A DNA stretch of 64,000 nt from assembly GCA_938041455.1 (NCBI GenBank), contig CALITO010000016.1, positions 1 to 64,000 of the forward strand, written 5' to 3'. Positions within the stretch are counted from its first letter, which is position 1, and each line of letters opens with the position of its first letter. The position numbers and the translations under genes are program-made. The stretch comes from an uncultured bacterium (GTDB taxonomy: Bacteria; Armatimonadota; JACIXR01). The notes below the pieces were generated by a model that was given only the letters and a program-made list of their open reading frames with translations, made no database searches and had not been told where the DNA came from. Positions 5,192 to 8,662 of this stretch are shown piece after piece.

Positions 5192-5209
5192 ATTAACGAG
5201 GTGAATTAT

Positions 5210-5857
5210 TTGTTCATCCCCTTTCACGAAGTTGCTCTGAGGCTACTCATCGCTTTACTTCTTTCTGGCTTAGTGGGTTGGCAAAGGGAGATAGCCCAAA
5301 GACCCGCTGGCTTGCGAACCCATATGTTGGTGTGTCTTGGCGCCACTCTGTTAACGCTTGTTTCCGTTTCCATTCCTGGGGCAGACCCAATGCGATTAGC
5401 TGCAGGTATAGTCACCGGTATAGGCTTTATTGGGGCAGGAACCATAATAAGGTCAACGCCTACCGAGGTGAGGGGCTTGACGACCGCCGCCAGCATCTGG
5501 ATGATAGCAGGTGTGGGAATAGCAATTGGAGTAGGTTTCTATTGGGGAGCCGTGCTCGCTACTGCATTTGCCTATATTGTCCTCGTTCTCCTGAAAAGAG
5601 TGGAAAGGCTCTATCATAGAGAACAAGAACACCTACTCAGCCTCGAGGGAAAAAATAGACCGGGATTGCTGGGAGAGATAGGAACTATACTCGGAACCTA
5701 TGGCATAGATATAAAGAATGTAGAGATTACCATAGAAGGAGAAAAAGCCTCTCTGAAATTGGGAGTTGATATCCCCTCCTTAGATTATATTCAAGAGGTC
5801 ACCCAGAAGCTCAAATCCCTTGATGGGATAGAATTCGTAAGATTAAGTAAAGAATGA
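5210..5857 (+). CDS. MgtC/SapB family membrane protein with C-terminal ACT-like domain
   Basis: MgtC family proteins are inner-membrane proteins that modulate magnesium or ATP homeostasis. The N-terminal half has about four hydrophobic segments and the family signature GLVGWQRE...RPAGLRTHMLVCLGA. The conserved stretch GIGFIGAGTI with downstream VRGLTTAASIW is also present. The C-terminal third (about the last 75 residues) reads as an ACT-type domain beginning NRPGLLGEIGTIL, as in several family members. The start is placed at TTG 5210 because GAGGTG (5198-5203) is correctly spaced. An in-frame GTG at 5201 lies inside that SD. The physiological ligand of the ACT domain is unknown. Confidence 0.88.
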   Translation: MFIPFHEVALRLLIALLLSGLVGWQREIAQRPAGLRTHMLVCLGATLLTLVSVSIPGADPMRLAAGIVTGIGFIGAGTIIRSTPTEVRGLTTAASIWMIAGVGIAIGVGFYWGAVLATAFAYIVLVLLKRVERLYHREQEHLLSLEGKNRPGLLGEIGTILGTYGIDIKNVEITIEGEKASLKLGVDIPSLDYIQEVTQKLKSLDGIEFVRLSKE

Positions 5858-5862
5858 GATAC

Positions 5863-6365
5863 GGTTTTGTTGAATAATTAAGCCAAAGAGCTTACGATAA
5901 GTATTGATGGAATATGAAAATAGGAGACAAGTATAATTGGCCAAGATATAACGAGGCATTAGTTAAAAGAGGGGAAGAAGAAAGGGGAAGACCTTTTTCC
6001 TATCCCAATAATTTTATAAAAGTCTTTGCCCTACTTCGGGTTGTGTTCAGGATACCTTATCGCCAGTTAGAGGGAATAGCTAAATCTCTTGGGAAAGTCC
6101 TAGGAAATCCCGCACCAGATTATACCACCTTCTTCGTTCGAACCTTCCAATATGAAAGCAGGTTATAGCCTTCGAGGTGACTGATGAAAGAACCTGTTTC
6201 TTAGGGAAAAGGGAATATATCCGGGCATAAAACCTAGGAAAAATGCGAAACCTAAAAGTGAAACCGCAAGAGCGCATATCTCCCTCTCTAAGAGATTGTT
6301 TGGAAAGGCAATCATAGAAGGAGGTAAAGCAGTTATGATATTTAAATGGTGTATTCAACAAAACC
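5863..6365 (+). mobile_element. Decayed IS5-like insertion sequence with both inverted repeats
   Basis: The left end (about 5863-5876) reads GGTTTTGTTGAATA, and the exact inverse TATTCAACAAAACC lies at about 6352-6365. The roughly 500 bp between them contain the N-terminus and a C-terminal piece of one transposase, far too short for an intact element of about 1 kb or more. An internal deletion has therefore removed the DDE core. I could not identify a clean target-site duplication. The right end is fused to the following GxGYxYP gene. Confidence 0.8.
5914..6334 (+). pseudogene. Transposase remnant (IS5-like)
   Basis: The first open segment (5914-6168) resembles the N-terminus of IS5-type DDE transposases: KYNWPRYNEALVKRGE, then FRIPYRQLEGIAKSL and APDYTTF. 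Reading continues in other frames as VTDERTCF and then IKPRKNAKPKSETARAH, which look like the middle and C-terminal parts of the same protein. Several frameshifts and a large deletion separate them, so it cannot encode an active enzyme. The last segment is in the same frame as the downstream GxGYxYP gene with no stop between. Confidence 0.75.
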
Positions 6366-8662
6366 TGAAATACCCTAAGTTTTTCCTTTCCTTTCTTCTC
6401 ATCTGCTCTTCCCTTCTCCCCTCTTCCGGGGGTGAGCTAAGTGCCTATCGGTTTGATTTGAGGAATCTCGATTATGACCACCAGATCCTTCTTTTTTGTC
6501 TCCAGGGCATTGTTAATAAAAAGGGCCCAAGGCTTTTCCTCAATACGCAAGAGCTCTTTTGGCCAAGGTGTCCCTGGGATGAAAAATGGATGGAATACTA
6601 TTCCTCCCAAAAGGGGTTCACCTTCCAGCAGGTATCGTCAATTGAAGAACTTCTCGAAATTTTCCGAGAGGATATAAGGGGCTTAGCGCTATACGACCCC
6701 GGGGTGGATGCTACCCGTTATATCGCCTGCACCTACTCAGGTCTTGAGAATTTGCTACCCGTTTCGCCTTCCCTATTGAACGAAGAGCCCTTTCTCAAAA
6801 GTTTCCCCATCGAGCGAGATTTAACGAGGGAAGAGCGGAGCAACAAGGAGTGGTATGAATGGGCTATTAAGAATTTGCTGCCTCTTTGCAATAGGAAGAT
6901 GGCTTATAGCGCTGGGCGCTCTCACGATAACATCAATCTGGGAGGCGACCCAGCAATAATCATTGGAATGGATTTCGCCGTCGCAAAGAAGATGTTCATC
7001 TTTAATCTCTCCCCTGCTGATAAACCCTCTTCCATTTATGGACAGCCTGTCCCGGGCTACCCAGAAGACGCTCAGCTCTTTGACGAGATAATGGATAAGT
7101 TGGAAAAACCCGCCGGTGTATGGGGTTGGGCAGAACCAGAAGGAGATTTTGCCATCCGGGTTTCCTCCCACAATAACTATGTTATGTGTTCCGCAGCAGC
7201 TAACCTAAGCTTCCACAGCAAGGCACCGGTAAGAAAGGGGTTTTCCTTCAAACAAAAGAACAAATATACATTGGAGAACACAAAACTCGAGAAGAAGTAT
7301 TACATAGCTTTCCTAACAAATGAAGGAGATACACCGAAGATAGTAGCGGCATGGCAAGCTGGTGGATGGCTAAATCCTCATAGAGGCGAGATTGCTATAA
7401 ATTGGGGGATCAATCCAATCCTTGTCGCTGAGTTTCCCGCAATGATGGAGGCTTATTATTCCACTGCTACACCAAACGATTATTTCTTCGCTGGTGTCTC
7501 AGGAGCAGGTTATGTCTTCATAGATAAGCTACCCGATTTACCTTCATTCGCCCGTCATACTGCCCATTATCTTCGGATGGCTGACGAAAGCATCGTAGAT
7601 GCCTGGAGCACCTCGGAATCCCTACCCCTTTATTCTAAATATGCCAAAATATCAGGGGTAGAAGGCATGCTTAGAAATCCTCGAGGTGAAGGAAGGGTTG
7701 TCTACCTTGAGAATGGTATTCCTTTGGTTGAGCCAGATAGCTCTATATGGTATATATCGGGTAGCGAATCACCCAAAGATATAGCGGATAGGATAAGGCA
7801 AGTAGCCAAGAAACACAATCCTCCATTTTTCATAGAAGTTTACGGAGGAGTTAGTGAAAATTGTCCGGTTTACTATAAAGCCATAATGGAGGAATTGGGC
7901 GATGAGTTCAAAGCAGTGAGATTGGACGAGATGATGTGCCTTGCTAAATTAGCAGGACAACTGGAAGTGGAATCTCAAGTTATATGTTTAAAACCATTAG
8001 GAGAAGAAAAGGTTAGGATAAGGTTAAGAAATTATTTCTCCGAGGTTTGGCAGGATTACCTGGAATTTGAGATTCCACCCCATTATGAAATATTTCCCAG
8101 GGAGCAGGGGTTTTCCCTAAAAAAGGGCGAAATTAAGGAAACGGAGTGGACGGTGCGAGCAAAGGAAACGGCAGAAGAAGGAGGAATTATAAAAATAAAG
8201 GCGAAAGGCAAAAATATGCAAAGAACATTGGAAATAAAACTATTGAAGCGGGAACAAATAGGTTTTGAGGATCTATTGGAAGATTTAAGGGAATGGCAGA
8301 AGTGGCCAGGTGGTGGAGCAACCATCTCGCTCCTTCCCCGAGGCGCTCGGATAGAGTGCCCGAGAAATTTACCCTTTTCAGCAGTGGAGCGAACGATATC
8401 CGTTGATCTAGATAGATACCCAATTTTGATGATAGATGTTAAGGCTTCTCAGGGGCTCTGGGCTTTGAAGGTGCGCCCCGTTGATGATATGAGAGATATA
8501 TGCTTGATACCAGACACTTCAAGAACTGGCGTCTTTCAATGCAATATAGAAAGGGCGACAGGGTGGAGAGGAAAAAGGGAATTCAAGGTGATAATATTCG
8601 TTGTGGGAGAAGGAAAGAGTATGGACATTAGCTGGTTGAGAATGCTGTCTCATCCCCTTTAG
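6335..8662 (+). CDS. Secreted GxGYxYP domain protein (putative glycoside hydrolase)
   Basis: 775 residues from ATG 6335, chosen because AAGGAGG lies at 6318-6324. After a short leader comes a signal peptide (KYPKFFLSFLLICSSLLPSSG). The body resembles the GxGYxYP family of putative glycosidases often found in carbohydrate-use loci: an N-terminal module with DHQILLFCLQGIVNKKGPRLF, and the hallmark motif appearing as GVSGAGYVFID (about residue 390). A C-terminal beta-sandwich region follows, with a NEW3-like segment. The RBS, start codon and first dozen codons lie inside the IS remnant, so the native start may have been replaced. Substrate and activity are unknown. It has no obvious operon partner. 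Confidence 0.75.
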   Translation: MIFKWCIQQNLKYPKFFLSFLLICSSLLPSSGGELSAYRFDLRNLDYDHQILLFCLQGIVNKKGPRLFLNTQELFWPRCPWDEKWMEYYSSQKGFTFQQVSSIEELLEIFREDIRGLALYDPGVDATRYIACTYSGLENLLPVSPSLLNEEPFLKSFPIERDLTREERSNKEWYEWAIKNLLPLCNRKMAYSAGRSHDNINLGGDPAIIIGMDFAVAKKMFIFNLSPADKPSSIYGQPVPGYPEDAQLFDEIMDKLEKPAGVWGWAEPEGDFAIRVSSHNNYVMCSAAANLSFHSKAPVRKGFSFKQKNKYTLENTKLEKKYYIAFLTNEGDTPKIVAAWQAGGWLNPHRGEIAINWGINPILVAEFPAMMEAYYSTATPNDYFFAGVSGAGYVFIDKLPDLPSFARHTAHYLRMADESIVDAWSTSESLPLYSKYAKISGVEGMLRNPRGEGRVVYLENGIPLVEPDSSIWYISGSESPKDIADRIRQVAKKHNPPFFIEVYGGVSENCPVYYKAIMEELGDEFKAVRLDEMMCLAKLAGQLEVESQVICLKPLGEEKVRIRLRNYFSEVWQDYLEFEIPPHYEIFPREQGFSLKKGEIKETEWTVRAKETAEEGGIIKIKAKGKNMQRTLEIKLLKREQIGFEDLLEDLREWQKWPGGGATISLLPRGARIECPRNLPFSAVERTISVDLDRYPILMIDVKASQGLWALKVRPVDDMRDICLIPDTSRTGVFQCNIERATGWRGKREFKVIIFVVGEGKSMDISWLRMLSHPL

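Follow-up and report, generated by a model that had tools for sequence, protein, structure and literature searches.

Genes and features at the locus

The window, that is, the whole 64,000-nucleotide stretch analysed, harbors a mgtC-like gene followed by a gene of the GxGYxYP family, and a remnant of a mobile element lies at their junction. The features are as follows:

5201-5857, + strand: mgtC-like gene with a C-terminal ACT domain (Pfam MgtC, 1.3e-39, and ACT); the same gene lies directly upstream in both sister genomes
5855-5862, no strand: left copy of a direct repeat, TGAGATAC, presumed target duplication (7/8 match to 6366-6373)
5863-6365, + strand: IS5-family (IS903-like) element of 503 bp, internally deleted and non-autonomous (inverted ends, transposase fragment, related copies in the same genome)
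5863-5876, + strand: left inverted repeat, GGTTTTGTTGAATA, with over 100 matches to this end genome-wide
5914-6168, + strand: N-terminal transposase fragment of 84 aa (PF13737, 2.2e-11, above the cut-off)
6188-6317, + strand: C-terminal remains of the transposase, in frame with the downstream gene (alignment to the C8 and C37 copies; open frame)
6318-6325, + strand: Shine-Dalgarno (SD) sequence AAGGAGGT from the right end of the element, 9 nt before ATG 6335 (duplex energy -13.6 kcal/mol; purine run conserved in other right ends)
6334-6339, + strand: TATGAT, holding the start codon, counterpart of a conserved TATAAT in other right ends
6335-8662, + strand: GxGYxYP-family gene, 775 codons from the element-derived ATG (Pfam GxGYxYP_C, 1.6e-32, and three further GxGYxYP domains; orthologues)
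6352-6365, + strand: right inverted repeat, TATTCAACAAAACC, translated as codons of the GxGYxYP gene
6365-6367, + strand: CTG where the native ATG stood, made of the last base of the element and the TG of the native codon
6366-6373, no strand: right copy of the direct repeat, TGAAATAC

The downstream gene codes for a secreted, sugar-enzyme-like protein that matches PF14323, PF16216, PF20957 and PF20958, all over the cut-off. The two inverted repeats of the element are complementary at 14 of 14 positions, and the right one falls, as an earlier sequence-only reading had proposed, within the codons that follow ATG 6335. The transposase fragment also matches the IS5 family transposase model NF033579 (1.3e-13, model positions 2-96 of 289), with a score under the full-length cut-off, as expected for a fragment. 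The element thus has an IS5-type transposase, placing it in the IS5 family, IS903 subgroup, and terminal inverted repeats of the GGCTTTGTTGAATAA type. No complete transposase with a DDE motif is present in it, so that it represents a derivative and not an autonomous IS, and no complete transposase of its family was found in its own genome. The fragment had no match among 100 related genomes, nor in a scan of a wider collection of genome contigs.

The closest relatives in the same genome are the C8 copy (95%) and the C37 copy (98% where the two overlap). In each of the three, the central part of the transposase is gone at corresponding places, suggesting that they descend from one common non-autonomous ancestor. 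Two further deletions, near 6277 and 6317, are private to the window copy with respect to C8 and C37. IS903B has the ends GGCTTTGTTGAATAAATC and the target duplication CTCAGATGC (PMC10569121). The window element resembles IS903/IS903B in its left end (GGTTTTGTTGAATAA against GGCTTTGTTGAATAA, 14/15; PMC10569121), in a related transposase N-terminus according to the family model and in a presumed target duplication of similar length, whereas it is decayed and non-autonomous, retains only transposase fragments and is flanked by a readable repeat of 8 bp instead of 9.

Insertion at the junction of the two genes

The element is flanked as ...AAAGAATGAGATAC / element / TGAAATACCCTAAG..., and two 8-mers drawn at random from the window would match as well as this direct repeat with a probability of about 0.0005. 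When the flanks are joined without the element, they read AAAGAATGA(A/G)ATACCCTAAG, which gives in order the end of mgtC, its TGA overlapping an ATG as ATGA, a Lys or Arg codon, and TAC CCT AAG. As the mgtC stop overlaps the native ATG in this joined site, the element, judged from its flanks, is placed on the native start codon of the GxGYxYP gene. The left repeat copy retained the mgtC stop (TGA, 5855-5857), and the right copy now reads CTG AAA TAC.

The repeat can be counted as 7/8, or as 7/9 with one extra base, and at 8 bp it is one under the 9 bp usual for IS903; the target duplication may therefore have been of 8 bp, or of 9 bp minus one base lost later. With a duplication of 9 bp, the native ATG would have outlived the insertion and been lost through a later one-base change, and the same change would also have aligned the frame of the element with that of the gene. 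The sequence-only reading had attributed the new head of the gene to insertion and deletion. The flanking repeat at the native ATG bears out the insertion; the deletions turn out to lie inside the element, and the loss from the host flanks at the junction amounts to no more than one base.

The same reading had set beforehand, as its refutation test, a comparison with orthologues lacking the element. In two genomes of the same genus, G001 and G002, mgtC lies directly upstream of the GxGYxYP orthologue, the IS is absent, and 6 nt separate the mgtC stop from an ATG belonging to the orthologue itself. In G002 these 6 nt are TTGTTT, between the stop TAA and ATG AAA ACA AAA (MKTKILALL...); in G001 they are GGAATT, between the stop TGA and ATG AAA AGA GCA (MKRAVAHEG...). 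The native start thus differs from that of the window gene in both relatives without the element, and their first codons are unrelated to those of the window gene (MIFKWCIQQN), while the remainder aligns over nearly the full length with 67-69% identity. The earlier interpretation withstood this comparison and holds in its main points. In the wider collection of genome contigs, the GxGYxYP proteins had a single orthologue, from an unclassified MAG.

It is very improbable that the junction is an assembly chimera of two IS copies, the least probable of the alternatives considered here. The draft consists of 50 contigs, several of which end inside elements with the same ends, as a chimera would have it; against this, the adjacency of mgtC and the GxGYxYP gene is identical in both sister genomes, the flanks bear a matching repeat, and the window copy carries private deletions.

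A probable translation start supplied by the element

Downstream of ATG 6335 no further start-like codon (ATG, GTG or TTG) comes in frame before TTG 6458, which is already past the hydrophobic segment, in agreement with the earlier claim that none precedes the signal peptide. Duplex energies were computed against the 16S tail, the 3' end of the 16S rRNA of this genome being GGATCACCTCCT. The -13.6 kcal/mol of the SD upstream of ATG 6335 is reached by only 0.66% of the 1829 ATGs of the window. On these grounds ATG 6335 is, by all appearances, the only credible start of the window gene, and the element end most likely supplies the ribosome binding site, the start codon and the first ten codons. 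The predicted N-terminus consists of MIFKWCIQQN, from the element, followed by the native LKYPKFF....

The origin of these signals can be followed in the other copies, whose right end reads outward AAAGGAGGCAGGGCGGTTATAATTTTTAAATGAAAATGTTTATTCAACAAAACC. The counterpart of the SD is AAAGGAGGCAGGG, located in their 3' non-coding right end. The SD-like purine run therefore belongs to the element, as had been claimed, but it lies downstream of the transposase stop codon and not in transposase coding sequence, which corrects its earlier description as part of transposase-derived DNA. TATAAT is present in most of the right ends examined, and TATGAT only in the window copy. We read the change from TATAAT to TATGAT as having created the start codon, and a net loss of 5 nt between this box and the repeat as having set the frame.

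Two other starts were considered. Upstream, no stop interrupts the frame for 49 codons, as far as 6188, and it is partly the transposase's own (KRLFGKAI, against KRLFGEAV in the sister copies), which confirms that it extends back into the transposase tail. Its sole start-like codon, TTG 6296, could thus begin a longer fusion of the transposase tail with the secreted protein. We regard this as highly unlikely, since TTG 6296 lacks an SD (-0.6 kcal/mol) and a long polar leader would come ahead of the signal peptide. Somewhat less remote, though still improbable, is a start at CTG 6365, the altered native codon, or hardly any translation at all, the ATG of the element being incidental and the gene decaying. 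Non-ATG starts exist, and this CTG occupies the position of the native ATG. However, it has no SD at a useful spacing (-5.8 kcal/mol just upstream), whereas that of ATG 6335 is among the strongest in the window, and decay is at odds with a frame that runs unbroken through 775 codons, collinear with the orthologues. Should the insertion be recent, such a frame says little about function. Saturation at synonymous sites (pS about 0.8, pN 0.19) makes the dN/dS ratio unusable.

Right ends that are intact contain two promoter-like sites facing outward, TTGACG-17-TATAAT (11/12) and TTGACT-17-TATTAT (10/12), although sites in these stretches are not much more numerous than in shuffled sequence. Both sites are found in L152:38-110 (C17), which has the 11/12 site, and in L022:873-944 (C37). 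Elements with such ends may drive neighbouring genes. In the window copy the -35 parts of both sites are gone; a promoter inside this remnant was accordingly rejected, a scan having found no site in it. Transcription thus probably reads through from mgtC, and no terminator-like site was found between the two genes.

We consider it very likely that a non-autonomous IS5-family element hit the ATGA junction formed by the mgtC stop and the GxGYxYP start, and that its right end now provides the start at 6335. The sequence itself shows the element, its site of insertion, the lack of a native ATG and the in-frame ATG behind a strong SD; the order of mutations, the read-through transcription and the use of this start we infer as follows. 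An IS903-like element inserted at the overlapping ATGA; the target duplication would have kept the mgtC stop upstream and left the downstream gene with CTG for ATG. Further internal DNA would then have been lost from the element, and the change of the right-end TATAAT to TATGAT would have given an in-frame ATG 9 nt after the SD carried by the end itself. Ribosomes would start at this ATG on mRNA read through from mgtC, and the secreted protein would carry ten element-encoded residues before its signal peptide.

Related ends in the genome and known systems

The end sequence is matched 104 times in this genome, while the backward control gave 0 and two genomes of the same genus gave 7 each. A second element family of roughly 223 bp (AAAGGGAAAAGG... 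/ ...TTCAAAGAACG) has the same GTTTTGTTGAATAA ends (loci L104, L105, L107, L108, L115, L122 and L123) and 9-bp duplications, as read by eye. Several contigs (C17, C21, C39, C40, C44, C45, C46, C1 and C49) start or stop within an element, about 40-140 bases in, as though identical copies of recent date had broken the assembly there. Two GxGYxYP genes of this genome adjoin such element ends; in the paralogue at C14:25979 (L150, L065), a right end precedes the retained ATG by a few codons.

Two other frames begin inside the right end of an element, near the position of the native start of their orthologues: that of a GH127 protein (C49:34193, L142; Pfam 5.1e-133), reading MKMFIQQN-LTQGSLYILKLVVIF... 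where the orthologue has MKTSSLIYKIIKLVVLM..., and that of a secreted-looking protein without a Pfam match (C11:4664, L144), reading MFIQRN-RILRICSLLIFSLL... where the orthologue has MLRRILIVLLFSLSS.... Both genes may start inside the element end. Alternative starts are an internal ATG in the C49 gene and, in the C11 gene, an open upstream frame with a possible start of its own; the C49 contig ends within the element, so that the duplication is unreadable there. The right end brings together a pair of outward promoter-like sites, a run resembling an SD and ATGs in frame (ATG AAA ATG TTT ATT CAA CAA AAC C). It is conceivable, although we hold it doubtful, that it acts as a general mobile gene head that has repeatedly supplied the 5' ends of genes for secreted proteins in this one genome and changed their expression; this would cover the window gene, the C49 GH127 gene and possibly the C11 gene.

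The value of the present case is that a probable replacement of translation signals is unusually well resolved and readable base by base: the repeat on either side pins the insertion to the native start codon, and the element-free state can be seen in the sister genomes. It bears on the survival of genes after insertions at their 5' end, and is a caution that, where elements abound in a genome, part of a predicted N-terminus may be of transposon origin.

The supply of the first codons of a gene by a mobile element is a kind of event already known. The blaNDM-1 chimera (Toleman 2012, cited in PMC8894482) similarly is reported to have gained a new 5' end through a rearrangement linked to a mobile element; its new first codons reportedly came from aphA6, brought with ISAba125, and not from the IS end, whereas here they would come from the IS end itself. 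A search of the literature for IS-supplied start codons gave as the nearest case the RU-2 repeat in YPO1552 of Yersinia pestis, a small mobile element that makes up residues 1-30 of a protein that is exported, and with them part of the predicted signal peptide (Delihas 2007, PMC2759123). The element is different at our locus, its insertion point coincides with the native start codon, and where the SD and ATG came from can be read per base. The palindromic elements of Rickettsia likewise insert in frame into host genes (reviewed in PMC10969869); their encoded peptides lie within the frames, whereas here the element end appears to replace the translation start.
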